This document shows, one piece after another, positions 15,768 to 39,633 of a stretch of DNA of 64,000 nucleotides. This stretch comes from Aphanizomenon flos-aquae FACHB-1287. GTDB lineage: Bacteria; Cyanobacteriota; Cyanobacteriia; Cyanobacteriales; Nostocaceae. The notes under the pieces were generated by a model, which saw nothing but the letters and a program-made list of their open reading frames with translations, searched no databases and was not told the DNA's origin. Location: NCBI RefSeq assembly GCF_014698755.1, contig NZ_JACJTO010000011.1, positions 1-64,000 of the forward strand. Direction: 5' to 3'. Numbering within the stretch: position 1 is the stretch's first letter; every line of letters begins with the position of its first letter. The translations under genes and the position numbers were made by a program.

Positions 15768-17108
15768 CTATACTAAGTGCATAAAGATAATATTTAGCAA
15801 TTCAGTACGAGTAAAGGGTTTTGTTAGATATCCAGAAGCCCCAACAAATCTCGCTTTGACCTTATCTATGATTCCCTTATTACTAGTAACAAAAATAATG
15901 GGAATATTTTTAAACATAGAATTATTACGGATAATGCGACATAGTTCATAACCATCAATTCCTGCCATATTTAAGTCCAGTAAAATCAAATCTGGCTTAT
16001 GTCTAATAATTGACATTACCGCTTTTACTGGTTCATTAATAGTCACCAAATTAAAATTCTCATTTTCTAAATAACGGCTAATTTCCTTGAGAATTGCGGG
16101 ACTATCATCCACAGAAATAATTTTGTAAATCTTTTGTGTAATTTTGGGATCAAATTCGACTTTTTGTGAATTAGTATCTATATTACCATCAACAATTTCC
16201 TTTGAAAAATCCTCTTGAGGTAAATTAGAAATAATTGGAGTTTCTGTAGTAGTATCTTGGGTTAGTACCATATCTGAAACAAATAATTCATTTCTAATTA
16301 ACTCCGTAGTGTTTTCAGGCAAAAATAATGAACTTTCACTGATTTTAGGTAATTTATCAAATGGAGGATCAGGTTCATGTAATACTATCGAACCCTTGAC
16401 AATATAGGGATATAAACTTAAAGCTAGTCGCAATTCATCCTGATTGATAATAATTGCTAAATGACGTAAGCTAAAACCTTTCATCCAATTGGTTATATTT
16501 TCCCGAATAGGTGGTAATCTTTTATCCTGAAATTTACTACTAACTAATAAATATGGCCGCTGATAGGGAGAGGATATATATTTACTAAGATAGCGCCAAT
16601 TTTGTAACTTATTTTGACATTGTTCTACGATATCATAAATATTTAATTGGCAAATTTTGGTAAAATTACTCGGTATTGTTGTTAATTGATAAGTACCGGA
16701 CTTAATGAGAATAAATGATTCAATTACTTCTTTAACTAATTCTTGAATCAGTAATTTTGCTTGATCAGTAATCAAATATTGTTCAGTAATTAGCCAATTA
16801 ATAGCTTCATATTCTGAGGGGTAATTGAGTAAATGATCATTACTTTCAGATTCAAATATCAAGCGCATTTTGACACGCACTTCATTATCTACAAGAGGAA
16901 TTTGTTCATAGAGACGACGTATCTGTCGTTCTAATCTATCAAATGGTTCTACAGAATGAGTTCCATAGATAATTTTTCCTTGTTCTATATATATCAACCA
17001 AGATACAGAGTTGCTATATACTTGTAAACAGGTAGTTTCATAACAATTGCTCAATTGTCTTAATAAACCTTGGGGAGATAATTTGGTAAATGTGCCAGTA
17101 TTTTTCAT
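15768..17108 (-). CDS. PatA-type response regulator (PATAN domain plus receiver)
   Basis: A 446-residue protein, read from the ATG at 17108 (MKNTGTFTKLSP); an in-frame start at 17141 would add 11 residues. The N-terminal 250 residues resemble the PATAN region (FTKLSPQGLLRQL, WLIYIEQGKIIYG), a spacer follows, and the C-terminal 120 residues are a CheY-like receiver: DD near SVDDSPAI, phospho-acceptor Asp in LLDLNMAGIDGYE, Thr in FVTSN and Lys in LTKPFT. PatA, PixG and TaxP1 share this layout and control heterocyst pattern or phototaxis. This gene is not followed by CheW or MCP genes, so it resembles the free-standing PatA form. It is not necessarily patA itself. Confidence 0.8.
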   Translation of the reverse strand: MKNTGTFTKLSPQGLLRQLSNCYETTCLQVYSNSVSWLIYIEQGKIIYGTHSVEPFDRLERQIRRLYEQIPLVDNEVRVKMRLIFESESNDHLLNYPSEYEAINWLITEQYLITDQAKLLIQELVKEVIESFILIKSGTYQLTTIPSNFTKICQLNIYDIVEQCQNKLQNWRYLSKYISSPYQRPYLLVSSKFQDKRLPPIRENITNWMKGFSLRHLAIIINQDELRLALSLYPYIVKGSIVLHEPDPPFDKLPKISESSLFLPENTTELIRNELFVSDMVLTQDTTTETPIISNLPQEDFSKEIVDGNIDTNSQKVEFDPKITQKIYKIISVDDSPAILKEISRYLENENFNLVTINEPVKAVMSIIRHKPDLILLDLNMAGIDGYELCRIIRNNSMFKNIPIIFVTSNKGIIDKVKARFVGASGYLTKPFTRTELLNIIFMHLV

Positions 17109-17322
17109 ATTTTTACATTTTTTGGGCGGATGGATTAACATAGTATTGGAAAAGATGAAATATCATTATGCTCATTATCAGAGTTATGAAATTATGAATA
17201 TCAATGAGAAACATTCTCTAAAAATTTTCTTAACGACATTGAATGTAACAGTTTTTCTGGTGTTTGATTCTGAATTATTTAGTAGTTGTCTGGATAAAAA
17301 TCTCTGTCCTGCTATTTTGTAG

Positions 17323-17852
17323 TTAGTTTTGAGTAACTACATAGTGACAAATAAAGACACTGGTATTACATTGGTAATTTAAATTGATAAAATTTCCTAT
17401 TGATACTCCTTTTCTTTCTGGACGTAATCATGAATTGATTTAGCTAAAGGCAGACGAAATCCCATATAAAATCTTTAAAAATTTTTGGAGGTAAACGTAT
17501 ATATTGATTATTAGAGTCGCTTGCGAATAGATAAACCAGAAAATCTGGCTAAAAACTAGACATTCAAGCTGTTTGACTCTGACTTCTAACTTAGTAACTC
17601 CTGAGTTATCTGATTTTAACTGTAGACAAGTTCAATTATGCTAGACATTTTACAACAAGTAAGATTAAATATCCTCATAAATTACCAGTGATTAAGTAGT
17701 TATGAAGAGAGGGAGAGAGAGTTGGCGGATTTGCCCCAAATCTATATATTTACTCAAAAAATCAAGTACCTCCCAGAAAATACCATAATTTCAGTCATAC
17801 TAGCGGGATAAACCGATAAAGTATATACTTTGAGTAAAAGGGAAATAAGACT
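17323..17852. other. 530-bp spacer with a possible frameshifted coding remnant at 17397-17518 (minus)
   Basis: On the minus strand 17397-17518 reads NNQYIRLPPKIFKDFIW and, after a one-base shift, GFRLPLAKSIHDYVQKEKEYQ then a stop. This looks like a decayed gene end of unknown family. The rest probably holds the promoter of the VWA gene; no strong motif was identified. Confidence 0.3.
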
Positions 17853-17879
17853 TTGGATTATAACATAACACAAAAAGTT

Positions 17880-18560
17880 ATGATTGATACATTTAATCTT
17901 GACGAAGTTGTAGAATTTGCGGAAAATCCTGAACCCCGTTGTCCATGCGTGTTATTGCTAGACACATCTGGCTCAATGCAAGGGGAACGAATCGAAGCTT
18001 TAAATCAAGGTTTGTTGAGTTTAAAGGATGAATTGGTAAAAAATTCTCTAGCGGCCAGAAGAGTAGAGATAGCCGTTATTACATTTGACAGTAGTGTTAA
18101 TGTCGTGCAGGACTTTGTAACTGCTGACCAATTTAACCCACCTATTCTCACAGCCCAGGGATTGACAATCATGGGTTCAGCAATTCATAGAGCATTAGAC
18201 ATTATTCAAGAGCGCAAATCCCAATATCGGACTAATGGTATTGCTTACTACCGTCCGTGGGTATTCATGATTACAGATGGTGAACCCCAAGGTGAACTAG
18301 ATCATGTTGTTGAACAAGCAGCCCAAAGACTGCAAGCGGACGAGACTGATAAGCGTGTTGCCTTCTTCTCGGTAGGAGTAGACAATGCGAACATGAGTCG
18401 ATTAAGTCAAATCGCTGTGAGGAGTCCACTCAAGCTCAAAGGATTAAATTTTATTGAAATGTTTGTTTGGCTGTCCGCCAGTATGTCAGCAGTATCTCAT
18501 TCTCAGGTAGATGTAGATGAGCAGGTAGCGCTACCACCAATTGGTTGGGGATCTGTTTAA
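17880..18560 (+). CDS. TerY-like VWA domain protein
   Basis: A 226-residue protein that is almost entirely a von Willebrand A domain: LLLDTSGSM forms the MIDAS metal site, TIMGSAIHRAL provides the conserved Thr region, and FMITDGEPQGE the second acidic site. It is read from ATG 17880; a TTG at 17853 is possible. It is the first of three genes, followed 52 bp on by a PP2C phosphatase and then by a kinase. This VWA-PP2C-kinase set is the TerY-P triad described in comparative genomics of tellurite-resistance-linked stress systems. Its VWA protein is thought to bind metal and act as scaffold or kinase target. Confidence 0.85.
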   Translation: MIDTFNLDEVVEFAENPEPRCPCVLLLDTSGSMQGERIEALNQGLLSLKDELVKNSLAARRVEIAVITFDSSVNVVQDFVTADQFNPPILTAQGLTIMGSAIHRALDIIQERKSQYRTNGIAYYRPWVFMITDGEPQGELDHVVEQAAQRLQADETDKRVAFFSVGVDNANMSRLSQIAVRSPLKLKGLNFIEMFVWLSASMSAVSHSQVDVDEQVALPPIGWGSV

Positions 18561-18612
18561 TGAAAATTACAGCTTGTTGTTTAAACTGAACTAGCTGTGG
18601 AAAACAAATTAT

Positions 18613-19395
18613 ATGAATACATCAAAACAGACTTCTCAATGGCGGATAGTAGCAGCATCTGTATGTGGAACTAGTCACTCCAAAAACCAGCAACTTTGTC
18701 AGGACGCTCACCATTGGCAACTATTAGCCAATAATGTTTTGGTAATAGCAGTAGCCGATGGTGCAGGTTCTGCTAAACTGGGAAAGGTGGGGTCAATGAT
18801 TGCGGTAGAAACAGCAATAGAACATCTTGCTCGTCAAGAGATTACTGGAGAAACCCTTGCTAATGATGATTTTTTGCGTTATTTGCTAAATGATGCCATG
18901 TTAGTAGCCCGCACAGCTATAGAAACCGAAGCAGACGTTTGTAATAATCAATCCCATGATTTAGCGACTACCTTAATTCTGATAATTGCTGCACCACAAA
19001 TTGTGGCTGTAGCCCAGGTTGGGGACGGTTTGGCTGTTGCTAAAAATAGCATAGGCGAACTGATCGCATTAACCATACCTAGTAATGGTGAATATGTCAA
19101 TCAAACTACCTTTTTAACATCTGCTGATGCTTTAGAGACAGCACAAATTAAAATAAGGCGGGAAGAAATTGTTAATGTTGGTGTGCTAACTGATGGATTG
19201 CAAATGTTAGCTTTGAATAGGATTATTAATGAACCTCATAAACCCTTCTTTTTCCCTTTATTTGAGTTTGTAGCAAATGCTGGAGATAAAATACTAGCAA
19301 AAGAAAATTTAATGAGGTTTTTAAGCTCTGATAAGATTACCCAGCGAACTGATGATGATTTAACCTTAGTGCTGGCTGCATTTATTAACTCATGA
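18613..19395 (+). CDS. PP2C-type serine/threonine protein phosphatase
   Basis: A 260-residue cytoplasmic phosphatase. Metal-binding PP2C motifs are seen: VADGAGSAKLGKVGS near residue 46-60, VAQVGDGLAVA near 136, VLTDGLQ near 195 and RTDDDLTLVLA near the end. No extra domain is present. It lies between the VWA and kinase genes on the same strand, so it probably reverses phosphorylation made by that kinase on the VWA protein or another target. Start: ATG at 18613. Confidence 0.85.
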   Translation: MNTSKQTSQWRIVAASVCGTSHSKNQQLCQDAHHWQLLANNVLVIAVADGAGSAKLGKVGSMIAVETAIEHLARQEITGETLANDDFLRYLLNDAMLVARTAIETEADVCNNQSHDLATTLILIIAAPQIVAVAQVGDGLAVAKNSIGELIALTIPSNGEYVNQTTFLTSADALETAQIKIRREEIVNVGVLTDGLQMLALNRIINEPHKPFFFPLFEFVANAGDKILAKENLMRFLSSDKITQRTDDDLTLVLAAFINS

Positions 19396-19497
19396 GTTGT
19401 AGTTAACAGGGATGAAAAACAGGTCAGTATCAGCCATACTCTTGAGTTTCTGAAATTTTGATTGATTCCAATTACTTCACATAACCTTAATTTTTCC

Positions 19498-21693
19498 ATG
19501 CAGGTACTACGTCGTCTTCCCAACCCCGAAATTCTCAACCTCTCTGTCAGTCTGGGACATGGTGGTGAAGCTTGTATCTATGCGGTACCATCGGATAAGA
19601 ATTTAGTAGCGAAAATCTATCACAAACCAACGACCTCTTATGTCCAAAAGCTGCAGGCTATGCTTGCTAATCCGCCAGTTAATCCCACAGACAATTTAGG
19701 GCATATTTCCATCGCTTGGCCGCAGGAATTGTTACAAGCGGCAGATGGTAGCGGTAAGATTGTGGGCTTTGTGATGCCAAGGATTTGGGGAATGCGGCCA
19801 ATTATGGATTTTTATAATCCAGGGATTCGGCGACAACATTGCCCTTTGTTCAATTATCACTATTTATTGCGGACTGCTCGCAATCTAGCGTCGGCTTTTG
19901 CGGCCTTGCACACTAGTGGATACTGTATTGGTGATGTGAATGAGTCGAATATCTTGGTGAGTGATACAGCTTTGGTAACCTTGGTAGATACGGACTCGTT
20001 CCAAGTTCCTGAACCGTTACGGGATGTTGTTTATCGTTGTTCTGTGGGTAAGCCTGAATATACTCCTCCTGAATTACAGAATAAAACTTTTGCTGACCAT
20101 GACCGGGAAAGTTATCATGATTTGTTTGGGTTGGGAGTGTTGATTTTTCAATTGTTAATGGAAGGAACTCACCCCTTTTCTGGGATATTTCAAGGGAAAA
20201 TTGACCCTCCGACCTACCAAGGACGGATACTTGCTGGCCATTTTACTTATAGTCAAAAGAAACAAGTACCTTACCTGCCTACTCCTATTTCTCCCAATTG
20301 GGATCTACTTCATCCCAGCTTACAGGATTTATTTGTACGTTGTTTTGAAGATGGTCATGATCATCCTCGTTTACGCCCTAATGCTCAGAGTTGGTTATCA
20401 GCATTAACGGCGGTGGAAGAGAGTTTAGTAACTTGTGGGACTAATATCCAGCATATTTATTACAATCATTTGGATAAGTGTCCTTGGTGTGAACGGACTA
20501 GACGATTAGGTGGAAGAGATCCGTTTCCGTCACTGTTGATGGTAACTTCTAAGCAGCATCTGCAACCACGTCAAAAATCGTTGTCTAAAACTAAGCGTCG
20601 CTATAATCCTATTTTACAGCCATTAAGGGTAAATTCTCCGGTATATCATTGGCAACCAATAAACCGACAGTTTTATCATGTTCCCTCTCCTCAAAAGTTC
20701 AACCGCAAGCTATATGCTGTAATTTTTAGTGTGATGGGATTGGGTTTTTTAGGGTATTTGGATGTAATGATTAAATTTACCCGTCCTTTTGTGTCCCAAA
20801 ATCCTTACACTCAACAAAGTTTGATATCTCATGCAGATGATCAGACTCCTAAGGATAAGGGAACAAATCTCTCTTTTGCGGATTATTACCAGCGTGGTGA
20901 TACTGCTTATCAACAGCAAGACTATCAAAAAGCAGTTATCAATTTTACTCAAGCTGTTATAAAGAATCCCCAGTTTATCAAAGGGTATATAAATTTGGGT
21001 AATTCTCATTACAATTTAAATGATTACAAGGCTGCATTAGTTAACTATAATGAAGCTTTGAAGTTAGATCCTCAAGAAGTTAAAGCTTATGTAAATCGCG
21101 GTAATGCTTATTATATGCTGGCTAACTATAGTAGTGATCCTGATAAGGAATATAAACAAGCGATTGCGGATTTTACTGCTGCTATCAGCATAGATGGAAA
21201 TGATGCAGAAGCTTATATCAGGAGAGGTATTGTGCAATTTGAAATTAATAAATACATCAATAATTCTTTTCATGAATATGAAAGAGCAATTGCGGATTTT
21301 ACTGAAGCAATTAAACTTAATTCGTCGAAGCTAGAGGCCTACTTTCAACGGGGTTTAGTTCGTTATCAAATGGCTCAATATAGCACAAATTATGCAGTAG
21401 AATATAAACGAGCGATCGCGGATTTCACTACAGCATTAAAAATCAACCCTAGATTGGCTAAAATTTATTTAAAACGTGGTATGGCTTACTATGAACTATC
21501 GCAATATGGAGAAGGCAGTGCTGACAAAAATCATATTCAAGCAGTTGCAGATTTAAAAGCAGCCGCTAAACTTTCTTTAGAGGAAAATGATCCAGATAAT
21601 TATCAACAGTCTGTCAGTAACATTTGTATTGTTGTTGCTAATAAATGCGACAGTTTATTATCTAATTCAACCTTGATGGGGCAAAATAATTGA
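19498..21693 (+). CDS. TerY-P triad Ser/Thr kinase with zinc knuckle, membrane helix and TPR repeats
   Basis: A 731-residue protein read from ATG 19498 (the longer frame begins with TTG 19462). Kinase features: a glycine loop SLGHGGEACIYAV, Lys in VAKIYHK, a catalytic loop GDVNESNIL without the HRD arginine, and DTDSF in place of DFG. After the kinase come one CPWC knuckle (near residue 335), a transmembrane helix (VIFSVMGLGFLGYL, near 415) and six TPR-like units to the end (about 465-700). The triad kinase in other bacteria ends in a zinc ribbon; here a membrane anchor and TPRs are added. TPRs may lie on the opposite side of the membrane from the kinase. Confidence 0.85.
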   Translation: MQVLRRLPNPEILNLSVSLGHGGEACIYAVPSDKNLVAKIYHKPTTSYVQKLQAMLANPPVNPTDNLGHISIAWPQELLQAADGSGKIVGFVMPRIWGMRPIMDFYNPGIRRQHCPLFNYHYLLRTARNLASAFAALHTSGYCIGDVNESNILVSDTALVTLVDTDSFQVPEPLRDVVYRCSVGKPEYTPPELQNKTFADHDRESYHDLFGLGVLIFQLLMEGTHPFSGIFQGKIDPPTYQGRILAGHFTYSQKKQVPYLPTPISPNWDLLHPSLQDLFVRCFEDGHDHPRLRPNAQSWLSALTAVEESLVTCGTNIQHIYYNHLDKCPWCERTRRLGGRDPFPSLLMVTSKQHLQPRQKSLSKTKRRYNPILQPLRVNSPVYHWQPINRQFYHVPSPQKFNRKLYAVIFSVMGLGFLGYLDVMIKFTRPFVSQNPYTQQSLISHADDQTPKDKGTNLSFADYYQRGDTAYQQQDYQKAVINFTQAVIKNPQFIKGYINLGNSHYNLNDYKAALVNYNEALKLDPQEVKAYVNRGNAYYMLANYSSDPDKEYKQAIADFTAAISIDGNDAEAYIRRGIVQFEINKYINNSFHEYERAIADFTEAIKLNSSKLEAYFQRGLVRYQMAQYSTNYAVEYKRAIADFTTALKINPRLAKIYLKRGMAYYELSQYGEGSADKNHIQAVADLKAAAKLSLEENDPDNYQQSVSNICIVVANKCDSLLSNSTLMGQNN

Positions 21694-21737: not shown

Positions 21738-21770
21738 ATCCCCGAATTCTTAAAGAAGTCGGGGATTTTG
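21738..21770 (+). terminator. terminator of the TerY-P triad operon
   Basis: ATCCCCGA, TTCTT, AA, AGAA and TCGGGGAT form a long hairpin followed by TTTTG. It lies 45 bp after the kinase stop. The remainder of the spacer to 22190 shows nothing recognisable apart from AT-rich sequence. Confidence 0.8.
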
Positions 21771-22190
21771 TTAGATAAAACCTACATTTTTTTCTAGTTT
21801 AAAGGGAAGGTAAATGGCTATACTACACATCTTTTGATAGTTTTAAGACCTCTGAAAAAATACACTCTACCCACAGTGTCAAACACTCTCCCCTAAGTAA
21901 AGAGAGAATTATCGGTAATTTTGTATCCCACTAGAGAGGGGAAGGCTATATTCTTTAAACCTGATTTACTTTTTTAAATTTACTCCTTTATTTATAAATA
22001 TTTTACAGATAAAATATGTTAATTTATTTGTTCTTTATCATTTTCTAGAAAATTACAGTTAAATTATATTTATCTACCTTCGACAGAGAAAGTAAGAAGT
22101 AATGATTCAATATTCCTCATATCATACTGCATTCTCCTAATCTCAAATTCATTAAATTAGAAACCACTAGCAAATGTTTTAGGTAACTAT

Positions 22191-22964
22191 ATGAAAGCAG
22201 TAATTTTAGCGGGAGGTTTGGGTACAAGGTTAAGCGAAGAAACCAGTATCAAACCTAAACCCATGGTTGAAGTTGGTGGTAAGCCAATTCTCTGGCACAT
22301 CATGAAGATTTATTCTGCTCATGGTATTAATGATTTCATCATTTGTTGTGGCTATAAAGGGTACATTATTAAAGAATATTTTGCCAACTATTTCTTACAT
22401 ATGTCAGACGTGACATTTGATATGCGATTTAATCAAATGAATGTCCATTCTGGATATGCTGAACCTTGGCGGGTTACCTTAGTAAATACAGGTGATCATA
22501 CAATGACAGGTGGACGTTTAAAACAAGTTCGTGAACATATTGGTAATGAAACTTTTTGTTTTACCTATGGTGACGGTGTAAGTAATATCAATATTACAGA
22601 ATTAATTAAATTTCATCAAGAACAAAAGACATTAGCGACACTCAGCGCGGTACAACCAGCGGGAAGATTTGGAGCAATTTCTCTAGGACAAGAACAAACT
22701 AAAATAACTAGTTTTAAAGAAAAACCTGAAGGTGATGGTGCTTGGATTAATGGTGGTTATTTTGTTCTCGAACCACAAGTAATTGATTTTATTGCTAATA
22801 GCTCAACAGTGTGGGAGAAAGAACCATTAGAAAAGTTAGCTGATTTAGAACAATTATCGGCTTATAAACATAATGGTTTTTGGCAACCAATGGACACATT
22901 AAGAGATAAAAACTATCTAGAGGATCTTTGGAAAAGTGGTAAAGCTCCCTGGCAAGTTTGGTAA
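22191..22964 (+). CDS. rfbF: glucose-1-phosphate cytidylyltransferase
   Basis: A 257-residue nucleotidyltransferase making CDP-glucose from CTP and glucose 1-phosphate. The N-terminus AVILAGGLGTRLSEET, KPKPMVEVGG and PILWHIMK is the signature of RfbF-type enzymes; FTYGDGVSNI carries the metal-binding Asp. It is the first gene of a plus-strand polysaccharide cluster that runs to 45428 and, by recalled order, corresponds to the start of the heterocyst envelope polysaccharide island (alr2825 in Anabaena PCC 7120). No CDP-glucose 4,6-dehydratase is obvious; the SDR gene at 24349 may take that or a related role. Confidence 0.93.
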   Translation: MKAVILAGGLGTRLSEETSIKPKPMVEVGGKPILWHIMKIYSAHGINDFIICCGYKGYIIKEYFANYFLHMSDVTFDMRFNQMNVHSGYAEPWRVTLVNTGDHTMTGGRLKQVREHIGNETFCFTYGDGVSNINITELIKFHQEQKTLATLSAVQPAGRFGAISLGQEQTKITSFKEKPEGDGAWINGGYFVLEPQVIDFIANSSTVWEKEPLEKLADLEQLSAYKHNGFWQPMDTLRDKNYLEDLWKSGKAPWQVW

Positions 22965-23016
22965 TAGTAATTTTTGATTTTAGATTCTGAAATTTTGGAT
23001 TAGGGAAAGATTAATA

Positions 23017-24228
23017 ATGTATGATTTTGCGATTATTGGTGGGGGAATAGTTGGACTTTCCACCGCAATGGCTTTAGGTGAAAGTTATCCTCATGCCCAA
23101 ATATTGGTATTAGAAAAAGAGAGTCAATGGGCATTTCATCAAACTGGTAATAATAGCGGTGTAATTCATTCTGGTATTTATTATAAACCAGGAAGTTTTA
23201 AAGCTAAATTTTCCCGTGATGGTAGCCGTTCCATGGTAGAATTTTGCCAGAAATATGATATTGATCATGAAGTTTGTGGTAAAGTGATTGTGGCTAGTAA
23301 TCAACAAGAATTACCTCGCTTAGAAAATCTCTATACACGCGGTTTAGAAAACGGTATTCCTGTTAAAAGAATTAGTCCAGAAGAAGTCAAAGAAATTGAA
23401 CCTCATGTTAGTTGTGTTGGTGGAGTTCAAGTATTTAGTACAGGAATTGTTAACTACAAAAAAGTTTGTTTAAAATATGCGGAATTAATTAGAAATCAAG
23501 GGGGAGATTTACGTCTCAATACCCAAGTTTTAAAAATTGTCACTAGGGGAAAAAATCAGGTACTAGAAACTAATAATGGCAGTTTTGAAACTCGATTCAT
23601 AATTAATTGTGCCGGATTACATAGCGATCGCATTGCACAATTAAATAACCTTAACCCCCAAGCTAAGATCGTTCCCTTTCGCGGTGAATATTACGAATTA
23701 GTCCCGGAAAAACGCTATTTGGTGAAAACTCTCATTTATCCAGTTCCTAACCCTGATTTCCCCTTTCTCGGCGTGCATTTCACCCGCATGATTGATAACA
23801 GCGTTCATGCTGGACCAAATGCAGTTTTGAGTCTGAAACGTGAAGGTTATAAAAAAACCGATTTTGACTTCAGAGATTTTGCCGAAGTTATTAGTTATCC
23901 TGGGTTTTGGAAACTAGCAGGAAAACACGCTGACGAAGGAATTAAAGAAATAATTCGTTCCTTTAGTAAAGCAGCTTTTGTGAAAAGTTTACAAAAACTA
24001 ATTCCCGAAGTCCAAGCAGAAGATATAATACCCACTCATGCAGGAGTTCGCGCACAAGCATTAATGAATAATGGTGCATTAGTAGATGACTTTTTAATCA
24101 TTAACGGTGACAATTCCATTCATGTTTGTAATGCACCTTCACCCGCTGCAACTTCTTCCTTGGAAATCGGGAAAGCCATTGTTAAGCAAATACCAGAACC
24201 AACGCATTTACATAGTTTAGTAGGGTAA
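23017..24228 (+). CDS. lhgO: L-2-hydroxyglutarate oxidase-like FAD protein
   Basis: A 403-residue FAD-dependent oxidoreductase of the DAO family. The N-terminus FAIIGGGIVGLSTAMAL binds FAD; HQTGNNSGVIHSGIYYKPGS is the family signature, and INCAGLHSDRIA and HAGPNAVL follow. LhgO oxidises L-2-hydroxyglutarate in the respiratory chain in enterobacteria. Inside a sugar cluster its substrate may instead be a sugar-derived hydroxy acid. It follows rfbF by 52 bp and precedes an SDR. A homologue occupies the same place in the Anabaena HEP island, from memory. Confidence 0.88.
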   Translation: MYDFAIIGGGIVGLSTAMALGESYPHAQILVLEKESQWAFHQTGNNSGVIHSGIYYKPGSFKAKFSRDGSRSMVEFCQKYDIDHEVCGKVIVASNQQELPRLENLYTRGLENGIPVKRISPEEVKEIEPHVSCVGGVQVFSTGIVNYKKVCLKYAELIRNQGGDLRLNTQVLKIVTRGKNQVLETNNGSFETRFIINCAGLHSDRIAQLNNLNPQAKIVPFRGEYYELVPEKRYLVKTLIYPVPNPDFPFLGVHFTRMIDNSVHAGPNAVLSLKREGYKKTDFDFRDFAEVISYPGFWKLAGKHADEGIKEIIRSFSKAAFVKSLQKLIPEVQAEDIIPTHAGVRAQALMNNGALVDDFLIINGDNSIHVCNAPSPAATSSLEIGKAIVKQIPEPTHLHSLVG

Positions 24229-24348
24229 TAGAACATCTCTTATCTGTGTTCATCTGCGTTTATCTGCGGTTAATTATTCTAGAAATTTTCTTCTCTAGGG
24301 ACTCTTCAAGAAACAAGTTAATTTCACACATCAAAAGTTTTAAAAATC

Positions 24349-25386
24349 ATGAAAATATTAGTCACCGGAACAGAAGGTTATCTTGGTTCTTTATTACCTT
24401 CTTTGCTAATACAAAAAGGACATGAAGTTATTGGAGTTGATACTGGATTTTATAAAGTTGGCTGGCTATATAACGGAACTAACTTAACAGCTAAAACCCT
24501 AAATAAAGATATTCGTGATATTAATCCCGAAGATTTACAAGGGGTAGAAGCTATTGTTCACATGGCGGAATTATCTAACGATCCTACTGGACAATTATCA
24601 CCAAATATCACTTATGATATTAATCATTTAGGTTCAGTTCGTCTGGCTAATCTAGCCAAATCAATTGGTGTTCGTCGCTTTGTTTATATGTCCTCCTGTA
24701 GTGTTTATGGTGTAGCTAGTGAAGGTGATATTACAGAAGAATCACCAGTTAATCCGCAGACAGCTTACGCCGAATGTAAAACATTAGTAGAAAGAGATGT
24801 TCAAGCATTAGCTGATGATGATTTTTCGCCTAGTTTCATGCGGAATGCGACAGCTTTTGGTGCTTCCCCTAGAATGCGATTTGATATAGTTTTAAACAAC
24901 TTGACGGGGTTAGCTTGGACTACAAAAGAAATTAAAATGACCAGTGATGGTAAACCTTGGAGGCCATTAGTTCACGCTTTAGATATTTGCAAAGCCATTG
25001 TTTGTACATTAGAAGCACCTAGAGATATTATTCACAATCAAATTTTTAATGTTGGCGATACTGCAAATAATTATCGAGTTAAAGAAATAGCAGAAATAGT
25101 TGCTGATGTTTTCCCTGGTTGTCAATTATCTTTTGGTAATAATGGTGCAGATAATCGCAGCTATCGAGTTTGTTTTGAGAAGATAAACAGTATTTTACCG
25201 GGATTTAAATGTGATTGGAATGCTCAACTTGGGGCTGAACAACTATTTAATTTGTTCAAAAAAATTGACATGACAGAAGATACATTTTTATTTAGAGGTT
25301 TTACAAGATTAAAGCAATTAGAATATCTGATTCGCACAGAACAAATTGATCGGGATTTTTTCTGGAATAAACAGGAAAATTATTAA
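24349..25386 (+). CDS. NAD-dependent sugar-nucleotide epimerase/dehydratase (extended SDR)
   Basis: A 345-residue extended SDR. The Rossmann motif GTEGYLGS lies at the N-terminus, SSCSVYG and YAECK (catalytic Tyr and Lys) near residues 124-145, then RNATAFGASPRMRFDIVLNN and WRPLVHALDI typical of nucleotide-sugar enzymes. The exact reaction (epimerisation, dehydration or reduction) cannot be told. With rfbF upstream, a CDP-linked sugar is the likely substrate. It is preceded by a 120-bp gap and followed by a MITE-like repeat. Confidence 0.88.
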   Translation: MKILVTGTEGYLGSLLPSLLIQKGHEVIGVDTGFYKVGWLYNGTNLTAKTLNKDIRDINPEDLQGVEAIVHMAELSNDPTGQLSPNITYDINHLGSVRLANLAKSIGVRRFVYMSSCSVYGVASEGDITEESPVNPQTAYAECKTLVERDVQALADDDFSPSFMRNATAFGASPRMRFDIVLNNLTGLAWTTKEIKMTSDGKPWRPLVHALDICKAIVCTLEAPRDIIHNQIFNVGDTANNYRVKEIAEIVADVFPGCQLSFGNNGADNRSYRVCFEKINSILPGFKCDWNAQLGAEQLFNLFKKIDMTEDTFLFRGFTRLKQLEYLIRTEQIDRDFFWNKQENY

Positions 25387-25402
25387 TTTATTCCGAAAAT
25401 AT

Positions 25403-25481
25403 TGTAGGTTGGGTTGAGTGACAGCAAAACCCAAGACGATTAATAATTTTATTGGATTTCCTTGAGTTAACCCAACCTACA
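25403..25481. repeat. MITE-like element with 13-bp terminal inverted repeats (79 bp)
   Basis: TGTAGGTTGGGTT (25403-25415) and AACCCAACCTACA (25469-25481) are perfect inverted repeats around an AT-rich core. It is the longest copy of the dispersed family in the window and lies between the SDR and first glycosyltransferase gene. Confidence 0.75.
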
Positions 25482-25524
25482 TTTCTTATATACCAAGCTA
25501 TTTTCTCATGCAGTATTAAATATC

Positions 25525-26493
25525 ATGCAAAAACTACTTACTATTGCCATTCCTACTTATAATCGTGCTGCATTGTTAGATAAACAACTGGCTTGGTTAG
25601 CAACAGCAATTAAAGGTTTTGAATCCGAATGTGAAATTATTATTTCTGATAATTGCTCAACAGATAATACACCAGGAATTGTAAAAAAATGGCAATCTAA
25701 TTTTAGTAAAAATGTATTTATAGCGAATAGAAATCGGGAAAATATAGGGCTAATGCCAAATATTGTTTTTTGTCTTCAAGCTGCTGGGAGTAAATATGTT
25801 TGGACTGTAGGTGATGATGATCCAATTCAAGAAAAAACGCTGGCTTATGTAATAACTAAACTTAAACAAAATCAGAGTTTAAATTTAATGTTTCTCAATT
25901 GTTGTGGACGAGATAAAAATACAAATAAAGTTTTAGTAAAACACTGGTTTACTAGTGATAATGATGAAATTATTGCTGACAGTAAACCTGTATTTCAAAG
26001 GTATTTACAGAATAGTTTTGGTGGGGTACTGTTCATGACAGCTATCATTTATAAAACCGAACTTGTACAGCAAGCTTTACAAAACTGGACTACTTCTTAT
26101 AAAAATTTAGCATCTCAAGCATATTGGACTGGATTTTGTGCTGCTCATGGAAATATGATTGTTACTCAAGATAATTATTTGGAATGTACAATGCACGCTA
26201 GTTCCTTAGAAGAAAATCCTCGTTGGTCATTAATAATGCGATATGTGTACATCCCAGAGATCTATCTGAAATTGTTAAGTTTAGGATATTCTTCTAAATT
26301 TTGTCAACGGATGATTCTAGAAAATATTTTCAAACTTAGTGATTGGAAAATATTATTGGGTGCTTTAAAAAGATGGCCAATTTTAGCCACAAATATTATA
26401 ATTACCTACTTGCAATTGATAGTAAAATTTATCTATAAACTGAATTTTAGTCCAAAAAAATCAGAAATAAATATCTCACACCTAAGCAATTAA
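25525..26493 (+). CDS. family 2 glycosyltransferase, first of three tandem paralogues
   Basis: A 322-residue GT-A enzyme. Motifs: LTIAIPTYNRAALLDKQLAWL, IISDNCSTDNT for nucleotide binding and TVGDDDPIQEKT with the DxD metal site. The C-terminal 150 residues, including YWTGFCAAHGN and a hydrophobic tail, are shared with the paralogues at 26551 and 28489. It would transfer a sugar to the growing heterocyst polysaccharide repeat unit at the cytoplasmic membrane. The three paralogues are about equally similar to each other by eye, which points to old tandem duplication. Confidence 0.88.
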   Translation: MQKLLTIAIPTYNRAALLDKQLAWLATAIKGFESECEIIISDNCSTDNTPGIVKKWQSNFSKNVFIANRNRENIGLMPNIVFCLQAAGSKYVWTVGDDDPIQEKTLAYVITKLKQNQSLNLMFLNCCGRDKNTNKVLVKHWFTSDNDEIIADSKPVFQRYLQNSFGGVLFMTAIIYKTELVQQALQNWTTSYKNLASQAYWTGFCAAHGNMIVTQDNYLECTMHASSLEENPRWSLIMRYVYIPEIYLKLLSLGYSSKFCQRMILENIFKLSDWKILLGALKRWPILATNIIITYLQLIVKFIYKLNFSPKKSEINISHLSN

Positions 26494-26550
26494 CTAAAAT
26501 ATCAAATCTACCTTCATAAAAATTCTCAAATATTTTTTGTACCGAAAACT

Positions 26551-27564
26551 ATGAACAAATTACTAACTATTGCCATTCCTACTTACAATCGAGCCGAGTT
26601 ATTAGATAAACAATTAACTTGGTTATCCCAAGCTATTAAAGGATTTGAAACAGAATGTGAGATTTTAGTTTCTGATAACTGTTCTACAGATCATACTCAA
26701 TCTATTATTAGTAAATGGCAAAATATTCTCAAAAACATCACATTTAAATCAAATAAAAATCCTGAAAACATAGGCGTAATGCGAAATATTTTTTATTGCC
26801 TAAGTGCTGCCACAACTGAGTATGTTTGGACAATTGGGGATGATGATCCAATTCAAGAAATAGCAGTTGCTTATGTGATGGATAAAATTAAAAATATTGA
26901 TGATTTATCATTATTGTTTCTGAATTTTTCTGGTCGAAATCAAATTACTGGTGAAGCAGTACATCCACCAAAAATAGTTGATAATCGCTGGTTTGATGCT
27001 GATACAGAAGATGGTGAAGGTGATGGTAAAGCAATATTTGAACATTGTTTTGCTAAAAGTGTAGGAGCAGTAATTTTTCTAACTGCTACAGTATATCGTG
27101 CTGATTTAATTAAACGCGCTCTCCAAATTTGGCCAACTGCTAGTAATAATTGGATATCTTTAGCATATTTAGCCGGTTATTGTGCTGCTAATGGCAAAGT
27201 AATTGTCACTAAAGATGTCTATTTAGAATGTATTGTTGGTGTTAGTTATTGGCAAAAACAACCAAAGTCTGCACTTTTAATGCAATATCAACACATACCT
27301 GAAGTTATTTTAAAACTTGAGCAAGTTGGTTATTCTAAAGCATATTGTTGTCGAATGCTTTTACAAAACTACCATGAAGTAGACCTGAAAGTTTTTTTAG
27401 GAGCAATGAGAAGATGGCCTATTTCAGCTATTAAGACAGTAGTTCCTTTTTTAGCTTTAGCTAGTGTAGCTGCATTGGAATTAATACCCATGAGAGAATT
27501 TAAAGTAGCGGAAGCAGAACTGGAGAGAACAAAAACTTCCGAAGTCAGAAGCCATAGAGGATAA
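26551..27564 (+). CDS. family 2 glycosyltransferase, second paralogue
   Basis: A 337-residue paralogue of the gene at 25525, with LTIAIPTYNRAELLDKQL, VSDNCSTDHTQS and TIGDDDPIQE. It has a small insertion after SGRNQITGEA (DTEDGEGDGKA) and a longer charged C-terminus. It lies 57 bp after the first paralogue and 27 bp before a 2-oxoglutarate oxygenase gene, so it is co-transcribed with both. Confidence 0.88.
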   Translation: MNKLLTIAIPTYNRAELLDKQLTWLSQAIKGFETECEILVSDNCSTDHTQSIISKWQNILKNITFKSNKNPENIGVMRNIFYCLSAATTEYVWTIGDDDPIQEIAVAYVMDKIKNIDDLSLLFLNFSGRNQITGEAVHPPKIVDNRWFDADTEDGEGDGKAIFEHCFAKSVGAVIFLTATVYRADLIKRALQIWPTASNNWISLAYLAGYCAANGKVIVTKDVYLECIVGVSYWQKQPKSALLMQYQHIPEVILKLEQVGYSKAYCCRMLLQNYHEVDLKVFLGAMRRWPISAIKTVVPFLALASVAALELIPMREFKVAEAELERTKTSEVRSHRG

Positions 27565-27591
27565 AGGTTACTATTAATTGGTAAGTACACA

Positions 27592-28434
27592 ATGCTTCAA
27601 AAAATTCAAGACAAAATCCCAAGTTTAAGTTCTGATTTAAATTATCGCCTATCACTTTGGCATCATGCTAAAAATTTACCTGCTATTAATTCAACAGATA
27701 AATTGATTGTTGATACTCTCAAAAAATCAGGTGTTTACATCACATCTTTGGAAGATTTAGCTTTTTCATCTACTTCTAAAATGTTAGCTATTGCTAATAG
27801 TTGTACTGATAATATGGTAAATCCTAGAGATATTCATGCAGGATACAAACTACCACAAATTTACACGGTTACAGATTTACCAGAATTTCTGAATTGGGGA
27901 ATTGAAACCCGACTAGAAAATATCATTGAGCATTATATAGGTTTACCTATTGCTTTTCATGGTGTTCATGTGCGGAAAGACTTTCCTAATGAAAAACAAT
28001 TGGAAACTTTACTATGGCATAAAGATTCTGAAGATAGACGCATGATTAAAGTCATTATTTATCTAAATGATGTAACTGAAGAACATGGACCATTTGAATA
28101 TATCCCACTACCAAAAAATTCTCTAGAACGATTAAATAATTATCGAATTGATTATGAATTATGGCGTGTTAATTTTTTAGGAATTAATGATGATACAATG
28201 ATGAAAGTCATTCCTAAATCAGCTTGGAAATCATGCCCTGGTAAAGCTGGAACTGTGATTTTTGCAGATGTGAGAAATATTTTACATCATGGGACTGTGC
28301 GAACCCAAGAACGATCAACTATATTTTTCACATACACGGCTAAATTTCCTAAACGACCTGAACTTTGTACACAATATTATGATGATACCTTTCCCAAAAT
28401 AAGCCAACAATCAATAACTGGCAGATTAGTTTAA
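27592..28434 (+). CDS. phytanoyl-CoA dioxygenase-like 2OG/Fe(II) oxygenase
   Basis: A 280-residue double-stranded beta-helix oxygenase. The iron facial triad is visible as H-x-D in LLWHKDSEDRR (near residue 142) and the distal His in NILHHGTVRTQERST, with the Arg that binds 2-oxoglutarate nearby. LNDVTEEHGPFEYIP is the usual family segment. Such enzymes hydroxylate small molecules or sugar parts. It lies between two glycosyltransferase paralogues, so it may modify a sugar or an acceptor of the polysaccharide. A 67-bp relic of a second copy lies after the third paralogue. Confidence 0.82.
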   Translation: MLQKIQDKIPSLSSDLNYRLSLWHHAKNLPAINSTDKLIVDTLKKSGVYITSLEDLAFSSTSKMLAIANSCTDNMVNPRDIHAGYKLPQIYTVTDLPEFLNWGIETRLENIIEHYIGLPIAFHGVHVRKDFPNEKQLETLLWHKDSEDRRMIKVIIYLNDVTEEHGPFEYIPLPKNSLERLNNYRIDYELWRVNFLGINDDTMMKVIPKSAWKSCPGKAGTVIFADVRNILHHGTVRTQERSTIFFTYTAKFPKRPELCTQYYDDTFPKISQQSITGRLV

Positions 28435-28488
28435 AGATGGAAAATAATAGCCAAAAACATTCGTACTTTCAATAATAAATTATCTACT

Positions 28489-29445
28489 ATGAATGCACTA
28501 CTGACCATTGCTGTACCCACATACAATCGTGCGGAATTATTAAATAAACAGTTGGCTTGGTTAGCTAAATCTATCAAAGGTTATGAATCTGAGTGTGAAA
28601 TTATTATTTCTGATAATTGTTCAGAAGATAATACACAGGAAATAGTTAAAAAATGGCAGTCATCTTTACCAGCCACAACATTTCATATCAACAGAAATAG
28701 TGAAAATGTTGGCGTAATGAAAAATATTACTTATTGCATTGAAGCAACAAAAAGTAAATATATTTGGACTATTAGTGATGATGATATTATCGCTGATAAA
28801 ACGATCTCTTATATCATCAATACCTTAAAGAAAGAGCCAGATTTAGCATTACTAATTTTGAATTTTTCCTGTCGTCATGAAGTCACAGGTGAATTATTAT
28901 ATGAGCGCTGTTATGAGCTTGATTTTGAACAAGTTGAACATCATGGCAAAGTGGCATTTGAGAAGTGTATACAGAAGAATCGCTCTGGTGTACAACTGAT
29001 GTCTGCTCAAATATACAAAACAGAATTAGCTCAAGGCGCTCTACGAAAATGGACTGATGGTGTGAAAAACTTAGATTACCAGGTCTATTTAACTGGGTTT
29101 TGTGCTTTTCATGGCAGTGTAAAAATAACCAAAGAAACTTTTTTAGAAAATGCTTTTGGTGCTAGTCATTGGATGGTAAAGCCAAAGCTATTGCTGAAAA
29201 TGCAATATACTTATTCACCGGAAGTTAATATCAAACTCAAGGAAATAGGATACTCTAAATTATTTTGTAACCAATTAATTCTTCAGCACTTCACTGGCAA
29301 TAATTGGCGAGTTTTCTTCGGTGCTTTAAGAAGATGGCCTATCATAGCAGTTATCACAATCGTTCCTTATTTTGGTTTAGTGATTACGTCAGTTTTGGAA
29401 AATGTTATTTCACAACAAGAAAGAGAAATTAAAATTTACCAATGA
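28489..29445 (+). CDS. family 2 glycosyltransferase, third paralogue
   Basis: A 318-residue paralogue of the genes at 25525 and 26551, with LTIAVPTYNRAELLNKQLAWL, IISDNCSEDNTQE and TISDDDIIADK. DDD is retained, but the following proline is replaced by Ile-Ile. Its C-terminal end has the same hydrophobic segment. It lies 54 bp after the oxygenase gene and is followed by the relic of another oxygenase copy, giving the order GT-GT-oxygenase-GT-(oxygenase). Confidence 0.88.
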   Translation: MNALLTIAVPTYNRAELLNKQLAWLAKSIKGYESECEIIISDNCSEDNTQEIVKKWQSSLPATTFHINRNSENVGVMKNITYCIEATKSKYIWTISDDDIIADKTISYIINTLKKEPDLALLILNFSCRHEVTGELLYERCYELDFEQVEHHGKVAFEKCIQKNRSGVQLMSAQIYKTELAQGALRKWTDGVKNLDYQVYLTGFCAFHGSVKITKETFLENAFGASHWMVKPKLLLKMQYTYSPEVNIKLKEIGYSKLFCNQLILQHFTGNNWRVFFGALRRWPIIAVITIVPYFGLVITSVLENVISQQEREIKIYQ

Positions 29446-29466
29446 AGCAAATTAGAAAATAAAAAA

Positions 29467-29533
29467 ATATCATGATGATACTTTTACCAAAATAAATCCT
29501 CAACTGAGATTACAATTAGGATTAAAGGTATAA
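29467..29533 (+). pseudogene. 3' scar of a second 2OG-oxygenase copy
   Basis: The frame reads YHDDTFTKINPQLRLQLGLKV and a stop. It matches the last residues of the oxygenase at 27592-28434 (YYDDTFPKISQQ). Only the tail remains, placed at the same position relative to a paralogous glycosyltransferase, so it marks a deleted duplicate. Confidence 0.7.
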
Positions 29534-29584
29534 ACCTAAAACAAAAAAATTCTATTATCCTCAACGAAAATTTCCTAAAAAACC

Positions 29585-30130
29585 ATGATTTTTACCTCTA
29601 CTAAACTCGCTGGTGCTTTCATTATTGACTTAGAAGAAAAGCCTGATTCTCGCGGTTTTTTTGCTCGAACTTTTTGCGCTGATGAATTTTTAGCACATGG
29701 CTTAAAACCAACAGTTGCCCAATGCAACCTTTCTTTTAATCATAAAAAAGGCACATTGCGAGGAATGCACTATCAAACTCTCCCCGCAGCGGAAACAAAA
29801 TTAATTCGCTGCACACAAGGAGCTATTTATGATGTAATTGTTGATATGCGTCCTGAATCTCCAACTTATTTATCGCATATTGGTATAGAACTGAGTGCAG
29901 AAAATCGTCGCGCTCTTTATGTTCCAGAAATGTTTGCTCATGGTTATCAAGCTTTAACAGATGGTGCAGAAGTTGGATATCAAGTGGGTGAATTTTACAC
30001 TCCTGGATATGAACGAGGTTTACGTTATGATGACCCAATTTTAGAAATTTCTTGGCCATTAACTGCTACAGAAATGTCTGATAAAGATCGGAATTGGCCT
30101 TTACTAGAATCTATTTTGATAGGAGTTTAA
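29585..30130 (+). CDS. rfbC: dTDP-4-dehydrorhamnose 3,5-epimerase family protein
   Basis: A 181-residue cupin-fold epimerase. Signature segments are DSRGFFARTFCADEF, GTLRGMHYQ (catalytic His), IRCTQGAIYDVIVDMR and PEMFAHGYQ. RfbC converts dTDP-4-keto-6-deoxyglucose to dTDP-4-keto-rhamnose, but in this cluster, which begins with a cytidylyltransferase, the substrate may be a CDP-linked ketosugar. The next gene begins 3 bp after its stop. From memory, the HEP island homologue is alr2830. Confidence 0.9.
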   Translation: MIFTSTKLAGAFIIDLEEKPDSRGFFARTFCADEFLAHGLKPTVAQCNLSFNHKKGTLRGMHYQTLPAAETKLIRCTQGAIYDVIVDMRPESPTYLSHIGIELSAENRRALYVPEMFAHGYQALTDGAEVGYQVGEFYTPGYERGLRYDDPILEISWPLTATEMSDKDRNWPLLESILIGV

Positions 30131-30132
30131 TT

Positions 30133-31446
30133 ATGATTATTGTTGATAAAGCTTTACAAGCACGGGCTGCATTAGGTAAACCAGTGAAAGTGGCGATGAT
30201 TGGCGCTGGTTTTATGGGTCGAGGAATTGCTAATCAAATTATCAATTCTGTGCCAGGAATGGAGTTAGTAGCTATTTCTAATCGTCACATTGATACAGCT
30301 AAACGAGCTTATTTAGAAGCCGGAATTGAAGATATCAAAATTGTTAGCAATTTAGCTGATTTAGAAGATGCCATAGCTCAAAATAAATATGCAATCACCG
30401 AAGATGCTATGCTCTTGTGTGAAGCAGATGGTATAGATGCAATCATTGAAGTTACCGGGACAATTGAATACGCTGCTCATTTGGTTATGTGTGCGATCGC
30501 TCATCACAAGCATATCATCCTCATGAATGCTGAACTTGATGGCACAATTGGACCCATCCTCAAGGTTCACGCAGACCGGGCTGGAGTCATCCTAAGTGCC
30601 TGTGACGGCGACCAACCAGGGGTAGAGATGAACCTGTACCGCTTTGTCAAAAGCATCGGTTTAAAGCCCCTTCTGTGCGGCAACATCAAAGGTTTACAAG
30701 ACCCCTACCGCAACCCCACCACCCAAGCCGGTTTTGCTCAACGCTGGGGTCAAAATCCCGCCATGGTGACAAGTTTTGCTGACGGTACAAAAATCTCCTT
30801 TGAGCAAGCCATAGTAGCCAATGGCACAGGGATGAAAGTAGCCAAGCGGGGGATGCTGGGATATGATTATACAGGTCACGTAGATGAAATGACCAAAATG
30901 TATGATATTGACCAACTTCAAGAACTAGGCGGTATCGTTGATTACGTAGTTGGCACTAAACCCGGTCCAGGAGTATTCGTATTTGCTACCCACGAAGACC
31001 CTAAACAACGTCATTATCTGAACCTTTATAAACTCGGTGAAGGACCCCTGTACAGCTTCTACACACCCTATCACCTGTGCCATTTTGAAGTTCCTCTCTC
31101 TGTAGCCCGTGCTGTCCTCTTCCATGATGCTGTGCTTGCACCCATCGCAGGCCCCGTTGTGGATGTCGTCACTACCGCCAAAATTGACCTCCAAGCCGGA
31201 GAAACCCTTGATGGTATTGGTTATTACATGACCTATGGACAATGTGAAAATTCCCCCATTGTGCAACAAGAAAACTTACTACCCATGGGTCTTGCAGAAG
31301 GATGTCGCTTGAAGCGCGATATTCCTAAAGATCAAGTTCTCACTTACGATGATGTAGAATTACCCGAAGGCAGACTTGGCGATAAATTACGTGCTGAACA
31401 ATCAGTTTATTTTGCTCCGGCGAAAACTTTAGCATTAACAAAATAG
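30133..31446 (+). CDS. homoserine dehydrogenase-like NAD(P) oxidoreductase with SAF domain
   Basis: A 437-residue protein read from ATG 30133, which follows rfbC by 2 bp (a start at 30094 would overlap rfbC). The N-terminus AMIGAGFMGRGIANQI is a Rossmann fold, and MNAELDGTIGP lies further on. The C-terminal 80 residues (CRLKRDIPKDQVLTYDDVELP) form a SAF domain. Such proteins occur next to rfbC-type epimerases in polysaccharide loci; the reaction is unknown, possibly sugar-nucleotide reduction. Base composition changes sharply inside: the first 130 codons are AT-rich and the middle is much richer in G and C. Confidence 0.8.
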   Translation: MIIVDKALQARAALGKPVKVAMIGAGFMGRGIANQIINSVPGMELVAISNRHIDTAKRAYLEAGIEDIKIVSNLADLEDAIAQNKYAITEDAMLLCEADGIDAIIEVTGTIEYAAHLVMCAIAHHKHIILMNAELDGTIGPILKVHADRAGVILSACDGDQPGVEMNLYRFVKSIGLKPLLCGNIKGLQDPYRNPTTQAGFAQRWGQNPAMVTSFADGTKISFEQAIVANGTGMKVAKRGMLGYDYTGHVDEMTKMYDIDQLQELGGIVDYVVGTKPGPGVFVFATHEDPKQRHYLNLYKLGEGPLYSFYTPYHLCHFEVPLSVARAVLFHDAVLAPIAGPVVDVVTTAKIDLQAGETLDGIGYYMTYGQCENSPIVQQENLLPMGLAEGCRLKRDIPKDQVLTYDDVELPEGRLGDKLRAEQSVYFAPAKTLALTK

Positions 31447-31592
31447 TTTTCAAATTAGCATCAAGATAATTCAGAGGTTTCCTGATATTTTCATTTAACC
31501 TCTGAATTTACATATAGCAGCTTCGAGCGGTTAAACGGCAAATCCTTTGCAAGCCTCCGTAATTAAAATTAGTATATCTCATTTCCCAATCT

Positions 31593-31676
31593 AATGAAGT
31601 ATACACCAATTTATCCCCTGTTACCTAAACCTAAAAAACCGCGCATCTCACGAGTATATTAACTGCTATATACAGT
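31593..31676. repeat. dispersed repeat A (about 85 bp), also at 35828
   Basis: AATGAAGTATACACCAATTTAT to ACGAGTATATTAACTGCTAT resembles 35828-35914 over the whole length with scattered differences. The rest of the 514-bp spacer 31447-31960 is AT-rich, probably holds the promoter of the next gene and shows no gene. Confidence 0.6.
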
Positions 31677-31960
31677 AGATAACAGAGATTATTTTTGATA
31701 ATATAGAGAGGTATTTGATCATGGTAACTCATATTAAATAAAATAAATTAGTTGATACCAAAGAAGTGATCCAACTTAGTCATGCAACATTACAAATTAA
31801 ATTACTAAGTCAGTTCATACAATAAAACCAAAACCTAAAATCGCTGAAAACTTTACTCTTGCCTCTTGCCTTTTACTATAACGACAATTTTTAATGCCAA
31901 CCTAATTAGAGGATAAAGATTAAAACCAACCGTCAATTACCAAATTATAGAGAAGAAAAA

Positions 31961-33055: not shown

Positions 33056-33195
33056 CTGATCATTAAAAATTTCTAAAAAGCTTGTACAATTCGCTTTTTT
33101 AATTTTTAACGCCCTGCGGTATTGAAGGTGTACATCGGTAATTCATTTAATTTTTTAGGTGTTTGCGTAGTGTATCGCAGATAAGGATAATAAAA

Positions 33196-35424: not shown

Positions 35425-35465
35425 ACCAAAATATTTGCTTGCTATTTAACTAGATACAACAGATT

Positions 35466-35914: not shown

Positions 35915-35951
35915 TCAAGTCAATTTTTCACTAATTTATCACTTTCAATAT

Positions 35952-39619: not shown

Positions 39620-39633
39620 ATAAGTGCAAAAAC

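Follow-up and report, generated by a model that had tools for sequence, protein, structure and literature searches.

Triads made of a TerY-like VWA protein, a PP2C phosphatase and a Ser/Thr kinase have been described under the name TerY-P, and their kinases carry a zinc ribbon after the kinase domain (PMC11090510). The closest characterised example is YegL-PphC-YegI of Escherichia coli. According to a citing paper (PMC13232886), YegI, a Ser kinase of the membrane, autophosphorylates, and PphC dephosphorylates it; the genes are not or only weakly expressed in standard growth, and no condition promoting the expression of yegI and pphC has been defined. Here we analyse a stretch of 64,000 nucleotides from Aphanizomenon flos-aquae FACHB-1287 (contig NZ_JACJTO010000011.1, positions 1 to 64,000; the window), in which three consecutive genes on the plus strand encode a VWA protein, a PP2C phosphatase and a kinase ahead of a heterocyst envelope polysaccharide (HEP) island. 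That this is a real three-gene TerY-P-like module is near certain. We consider it rather probable that it works as a phospho-switch in the membrane, with TPRs that sense outward and the VWA protein as adaptor, and that it tunes the synthesis or export of HEP. The kind of triad is known; its setting beside the HEP island and its architecture are new.

The triad and its kinase

We compared the window with the best 80 of 415 relatives, giving 81 loci (NCBI places 78 of the 80 relatives in Nostocales). The host genome has 4.35 Mb, and its nearest named relatives are Dolichospermum, Anabaena and Cuspidothrix strains; the top 12 loci share 82-89% identity in the kinase part. An earlier, sequence-only reading of this DNA had recognised a TerY-P triad in the order VWA, PP2C, kinase, and this was borne out: the triad is complete, collinear and on a single strand in 81/81 loci. 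Its features in the window are the following.

17824..17882, + strand: leader of the VWA gene, with TATACT at 17824-17829, a Shine-Dalgarno-like AGGGA at 17839-17843, TTG at 17853 and an inverted repeat at 17864-17882
17853..18560 (ATG alternative at 17880), + strand: VWA protein, YegL/TerY-like; Pfam PF00092, 8e-12; motifs of the metal ion-dependent adhesion site (MIDAS) intact
18613..19395, + strand: PP2C phosphatase, PphC-like; Pfam PF13672 (PP2C_2), 4e-55; metal-site motifs intact
19498..21693, + strand: kinase gene, 731 residues; Pfam PF00069 (Pkinase) at 1e-7, which barely passes the cut-off, and TPRs
19498..20427, + strand: kinase domain, residues 1-310, with K39, GDVNESN and DTDS
20434..20490, + strand: zinc-type site C313-x5-H319-x8-C328-PW-C331
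20707..20778, + strand: membrane helix, residues 404-427, N side predicted inside; a helix in the structure model, with low confidence there
20875..21633, + strand: TPR domain, residues 460-712, predicted outside; Pfam TPRs, confidently modelled
21738..21774, + strand: terminator-like hairpin and T run after the kinase, -17.6 kcal/mol, z -3.4

The TerY-P composition (VWA with MIDAS, PP2C, Ser/Thr kinase) was found in all 81 loci, and so were the VWA motifs DTSGS, GLTxMG and ITDGEP, the PP2C motifs QDA, ADG, GDG and TDDD, and the GDVNESN loop of the kinase. The best kinase start is ATG 19498, where orthologs begin with MQVLR or similar. A second set of 63 loci (L038-L100), 22 of them from the window's family, provided 47 kinases, which with the window's own make an alignment of 48 rows, E. 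coli being represented by two; not used were the fusion L076 and loci in which the kinase has no open reading frame (ORF) of its own. The sequence-only reading had remarked on odd catalytic motifs, with no HRD Arg and DTDS in place of DFG, and these hold: D-x-D-S-x-Q replaces DFG in 48/48 kinases, E. coli YegI included, and is a family signature. Since the active-site motifs are intact in 81/81 loci, the kinase looks active despite the missing Arg. The same reading had credited the kinase with only one CPWC knuckle, which was a miscount, as C313 and H319 complete a four-ligand pattern directly after the C-lobe. All four ligands are invariant in 48/48 kinases, in which the last part of the site reads C328-x-W-C331, and the C/H/C/C pattern extends to E. 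coli YegI and to L055-L057, from another class. We take it for a complete candidate zinc site, predicted from this pattern to bind zinc.

Past the zinc-type site, the kinase continues with a variable linker, the membrane helix and seven TPR-like helix pairs. The helix and the TPRs had already been noticed from the sequence alone, and they are confirmed by a hydrophobic helix in the kinases of all 81 loci (maximum at least 1.75), by Pfam and by the TPR pairs of a model. This 731-residue model has a mean predicted local distance difference test (pLDDT) score of 59, with the TPRs modelled confidently and the kinase part poorly; its top Foldseek rows are TPR proteins and give no functional hint. 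Membrane helices follow the positive-inside rule. In 80/81 loci the helix has more positive charge on its N side than on its C side (the other is a tie), so the TPRs should face the outside of the membrane.

Other tails occur on related kinases. Among the group-I kinases sampled, TPR tails are found only in the window's family, while L040, L050 and L051 carry WD40 tails (Pfam), as does L052 by its place in the tree as sister of L051, and L044 and L045 have a multi-helix tail. In the distant group II we found WD40 (L079), TPR (L075) and TPR plus PDZ (L067). Quick trees, with long-branch warnings, unite the 23 family rows in one clade for kinase, VWA and PP2C (100, 96 and 97), and a cyanobacterial clade of 29 rows in the kinase and VWA trees (97 and 97) contains TPR, WD40 and multi-helix forms. 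The E. coli rows fall outside the 29-row clade, beside L055-L057, which had first been labelled group I (99 and 89, again quick trees). Because a single clade holds all three forms, these kinases are best read as one inherited switch fitted with different sensor tails.

Selection differs along the triad. In the window and 12 close relatives, the median ratio of nonsynonymous to synonymous substitution rates (dN/dS) was 0.04 for the VWA gene, 0.14 for PP2C, 0.11 for the kinase and zinc part, 0.32 for the linker and helix (single pairs reach 1.57) and 0.13 for the TPR part, which is thus under purifying selection. The VWA protein evolves slowest of the three, as might be expected of a hub with several partners.

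The ORFs of the triad are separated by median gaps of 51 and 58 bases (81 loci). A hairpin with a T run lies within 300 bases 3' of the kinase in 52/80 loci, against 1/80 in one base shuffle of each, and in the internal gaps of the triad, shorter stretches than the 300 bases scanned behind the kinase, it occurs in 2/81 and 1/81. Being common after the kinase and rare inside the triad, the hairpin suggests a tricistronic unit separate from the biosynthetic genes. At the other end, the VWA gene has two candidate starts, TTG 17853 and ATG 17880. AGGGA lies nine bases 5' of the TTG, and third-position conservation is 0.93 in codons 2-10 after it, compared to 0.78 in the following ones. In L128 and L175 ATA replaces the ATG, which favours the TTG, and in L152 a stop in the TTG frame ahead of the ATG argues against it. 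Among 78 distinct loci, TATACT is present somewhere in the leader of 69, and the inverted repeat CATAAC-N7-GTTATG, overlapping ATG 17880, is intact in 73, compensated in one (L175) and broken in four. The repeat may serve as an operator or form a hairpin at the start codon, with too little variation to prove either. An Rfam scan of 17000-22400 gave no match, and a promoter scan gave 15 sites against 18.4 in shuffles, hence no excess.

The setting beside the HEP island

The triad is flanked by a divergent response-regulator gene and by the HEP island, whose landmarks are listed here.

15768..17141, - strand: PATAN (DUF4388) and response-regulator gene, divergent from the triad; Pfam PF00072 1e-25, PF14332 1e-15
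22191..45428, + strand: HEP island, recognised by Pfam and by the landmark order of alr2825-alr2841
22191, + strand: rfbF-like gene
23017, + strand: FAD oxidoreductase
24349, + strand: epimerase, with glycosyltransferases next
29585, + strand: rfbC-like gene
30094, + strand: DRL oxidoreductase
35883, + strand: Bac_transf gene, HepC-like, named by position and family
37790, + strand: ABC transporter, HepA-like, named by position and family
43995, + strand: Wzy_C gene

Counting ORFs of 100 or more codons as neighbours, the rfbF-like first gene of the island follows the triad in 78/81 loci, as the next ORF in 73 and as the second in five; L144 and L176 are contig ends and L127 is a real break. 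The FAD oxidoreductase is found downstream in 73/81 loci and the epimerase in 72/81. On the other side, the PATAN/DUF4388 response regulator is upstream and divergent in 78/81, all three misses (L133, L144, L176) being contig ends. The next two genes of the window past the response regulator recur in merely 6-7 of the 81 loci, so on this comparison the adjacency of triad and HEP genes is more than background synteny. Among the 22 further family loci, some of which are probably strains already counted, the response regulator precedes the triad in 20 (not in L097 and L100) and the rfbF-like gene follows it in 19; of the misses, L038 and L039 lack it and L089 is a contig end. In L038, ORFs that we labelled by eye as glycosyltransferase-like and Wzy-like face the 3' side of the triad. 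Another genus, with five genomes, has the triad followed by rfbF in four (L182-L185), not in L181. The PATAN/DUF4388 receiver protein is a candidate partner or regulator of the triad. At its far end the HEP island converges with an ABC1 atypical-kinase gene (45534-47522, - strand).

The island has a studied counterpart in Anabaena PCC 7120. PMC4390870 prints the order alr2825 (glucose-1-P cytidylyltransferase), alr2827 (epimerase), alr2830 (rfbC), alr2831 (oxidoreductase), alr2832 (glycosyltransferase), alr2834 (hepC), alr2835 (hepA) and more glycosyltransferases up to alr2841. The window's landmarks at 22191-45428 follow this order, without matching it gene for gene. Ahead of alr2825, the same paper lists three same-strand genes, alr2822-alr2824, as hypothetical, and alr2822 also appears in print as a 'hep island protein'; by synteny, alr2822-alr2824 should be the triad. 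After 8 h without nitrogen, their log2 changes were -1.48, -1.58 and -2.24 in a sigC disruptant and -1.42, -1.60 and -1.93 in a sigE disruptant, the island falling with them in both, and the authors cannot separate direct from indirect effects (PMC4390870). Deletion of cse lowers alr2822-alr2841 2-3.5-fold (PMC7065334), and the region alr2816-all2838 is induced by 12 h after step-down (PMC3141674). Among the open-licence papers searched we found none that names the triad at the HEP island, and no listed title or opening of an abstract links heterocysts with it. Terms for heterocyst, VWA and PP2C co-occur in PMC1262709 and PMC7159879. A hit for 'tery' beside 'heterocyst' in PMC2821919 was discarded, as it stands for Trichodesmium erythraeum and not for TerY.

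Across the family, the triad is close to universal. A survey of 217 family genomes found the group-I VWA (E <= 1e-70) in 215, with misses in G534 and in G535; in the latter PP2C and kinase lie at the start of a contig, so the VWA miss is a contig break. HepA (E <= 1e-150) was likewise found in 215, with misses in G155 and G531. No co-loss of VWA and HepA was seen among the 217, the misses being different, and three of the four genomes concerned consist of 860-1110 contigs. The host genome holds one VWA match and one kinase match, and in the phylum a VWA match at E <= 0.001, distant VWA proteins included, is present in 108/386 genomes. A search of 72,556 plasmid records gave 2,323 with a related VWA, every one under 60% identity; of 50,697 phage records 3 have one, and a scan of viral contigs with the kinase gave no confirmed relative. 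The pattern reads as that of a core, vertically inherited module rather than a mobile one for defence or resistance. As for nitrogen fixation itself, nifH (E <= 1e-100) was found in 179/217 family genomes, and no uninterrupted nifH at this threshold in the host genome nor in 11/15 others of its genus; these misses may mean that the gene is interrupted or that nitrogen fixation was lost, and we draw nothing from them.

Outside the family, the make-up of the loci varies. In the stretches fetched, L041, L042, L048 and L054 have a group-I VWA without a kinase or PP2C match, L043, L046, L047, L049 and L053 have PP2C only, and in L044 and L045 the kinase lies several ORFs off. In group II, L061 and L073 have PP2C only, and L063, L065, L070, L076 and L077 have neither as a separate gene. 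In L076 a single ORF (L076:5578-9189) joins Band_7, VWA and kinase domains with a C/H/CYWC pattern, a natural VWA-kinase fusion. Another ORF (L077:4813-8658) fuses a VWA of this protein family to a GUN4 domain. The group-I VWA genes of L041 and L042 both adjoin one unlabelled protein, the same in each, which has a WLDLLDSYRFKKRLERAR stretch; from reading it, a SWIM/SNF2 association may be thought of.

Possible roles of the triad

Nearly all the relatives examined keep the triad beside HEP genes, and hence control of the HEP coat is suggested. The support for this link is genomic and transcriptional; we infer the single transcript, the topology, the phosphotransfer to the VWA protein and the HEP target. 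In such a switch, the kinase would sit in the cytoplasmic membrane with the catalytic and zinc parts on the inner side and the TPR domain on the outer, and sensing would probably take place outside the membrane through the TPRs. Contact of the TPRs with an envelope protein or with the polysaccharide-export machinery would set the kinase activity. The kinase would then autophosphorylate and also act on the VWA protein, on a HEP enzyme or regulator, or on both, the PP2C would reset the switch, and the Mg-dependent VWA protein would be a phospho-controlled adaptor relaying the signal to the target. The L076 fusion would support a VWA protein and a kinase working together directly.

Several observations weigh against this proposal. 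The co-regulation in Anabaena could be ordinary heterocyst co-expression, and a terminator-like hairpin stands between the triad and rfbF. The adjacency to HEP genes is broken or unseen in L127, L181, L038, L039 and L089, and G534 (88% complete) has HepA without VWA and kinase matches. Outside the family the triad is frequently incomplete, and the L076 fusion has NTDS instead of DTDS, so its kinase may be inactive. Genes from 14003-27999 of the window, sought in stretches of 9.5-13 kb per locus, were not found beside the group-I triads L040, L044, L045 and L050-L052 of other families; given these triads, HEP control cannot, on the loci compared, be the ancestral role. Finally, the passages of the literature consulted yielded no mutant, substrate, localisation, phenotype or phosphotransfer data for these genes.

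Tentatively, and as a guess more likely to fail than to hold, we also propose that the triad might act as a transmembrane checkpoint of the heterocyst (and akinete) coat, in which the TPRs would dock the export apparatus or the growing coat and kinase, PP2C and VWA would toggle HEP enzymes by coat status. Periplasmic TPR scaffolds act in other exopolysaccharide systems. If true, such a checkpoint would extend TerY-P-like triads to a role in development and would be a case of a single kinase core on which sensor tails (TPR, WD40, multi-helix) are interchangeable. We do not claim a function in heterocysts only, given the group-I triads away from HEP and the heterocyst-less R. brookii D9, which keeps its HEP cluster (PMC2821919).

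These same triads of other families, the hairpin of the triad's own and the variety of tails on a single kinase lineage would also fit a general phospho-switch for envelope or wall stress, older than heterocysts, with other envelope targets and merely placed beside, and co-expressed with, the HEP genes; the D9 cluster adds that this neighbourhood is not bound to heterocysts alone. The HEP adjacency is, however, highly conserved while the outer upstream neighbours change, and the triad shares the dependence of HEP on sigC, sigE and cse. We therefore regard a general envelope switch as unlikely, while giving it real weight.

An antiphage module akin to TerY-P defence, whose kinase would signal infection, is highly improbable. 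In its favour, the triad has the three-protein composition of published antiphage TerY-P systems (PMC11090510, PMC7699616, PMC10889362), the kinase domain weakly matches kinase models of PADLOC (best 3e-8), and relatives of the VWA are found on plasmids. The VWA and PP2C, however, have no PADLOC match, the VWA is in nearly every family genome with conserved synteny, the viral contigs gave no kinase relative, and the window kinase shows no match to the OB fold of the published stand-alone kinase (PMC11090510).

The role in tellurite or metal stress that the sequence-only reading had proposed fits the intact MIDAS and zinc-type sites and the description of TerY-P triads as hypothesised metal-sensing switches (PMC11090510), but we give it hardly any credence and rejected it as the leading explanation, since that reading was right that no ter genes lie nearby (TerD has no match in the whole genome and the two TerB matches are on other contigs), the conserved neighbours are polysaccharide genes, and a FurC box predicted at alr2822 was negative in an electrophoretic mobility shift assay (PMC10406281).

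A HEP-tuning membrane switch, our preferred reading, has the advantage that the triad is fixed beside a developmental island that has been studied well, is open to genetic work and has a readout that can be seen, which makes its function directly testable in Anabaena PCC 7120. With this reading, a layer of phosphorylation in the making of the heterocyst coat would gain a name, for three genes so far tabulated as 'hypothetical' (PMC4390870).

Comparison with known systems

The genes yegL, pphC and yegI of E. coli K-12 (b2073, b2072, b2070) stand in the same order as the triad of the window, with a reverse-strand yegJ between pphC and yegI. The protein annotated as yegL is 51% identical to the window VWA over 95%, and phmmer matches the window proteins to yegL, pphC and yegI at 5e-70, 1e-40 and 3e-55 (L080). 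Both kinases are predicted to be membrane-bound and have non-standard catalytic motifs. YegI shares with the window kinase the GDVN loop, the C/H/C/C pattern and hydrophobic helices following it, and has DSDS. The kinase had been taken from its sequence for a cyanobacteria-specific form, which these shared traits contradict; what remains of that claim is the tail, the part that does differ, and even there TPRs recur in group II (L067, L075). YegI has two hydrophobic helices, which should bring the end of its tail back into the cytoplasm, a weak helix-hairpin-helix match and no TPRs. In quick trees, YegL-PphC-YegI belongs to a different evolutionary subgroup than the window kinase and VWA, and, unlike the window, it has no polysaccharide island adjoining.

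The comparison with TerY-P is similar. As summarised in PMC11090510, that triad (Anantharaman et al. 2012) shares with the window a TerY-like VWA, a PP2C and a Ser/Thr kinase, and the candidate zinc site of the window kinase may be the counterpart of its C-terminal zinc ribbon. The window differs in having a membrane helix and a TPR tail past this site and in its neighbours, which are polysaccharide genes and not ter, restriction or defence genes. Antiphage TerY-P (Gao et al. 2020, as cited in PMC11090510, PMC7699616, PMC10889362) has the same three-protein make-up, but its stand-alone kinase ends in an OB fold, whereas our locus is core and syntenic. In Anabaena PCC 7120, the HEP island shows the landmarks of 17853-45428 in the same order, down to the three genes that precede the rfbF-like alr2825. 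Since the link to ter and defence genes is an association and not part of the triad itself, the label TerY-P-like is apt here in the broad sense only.

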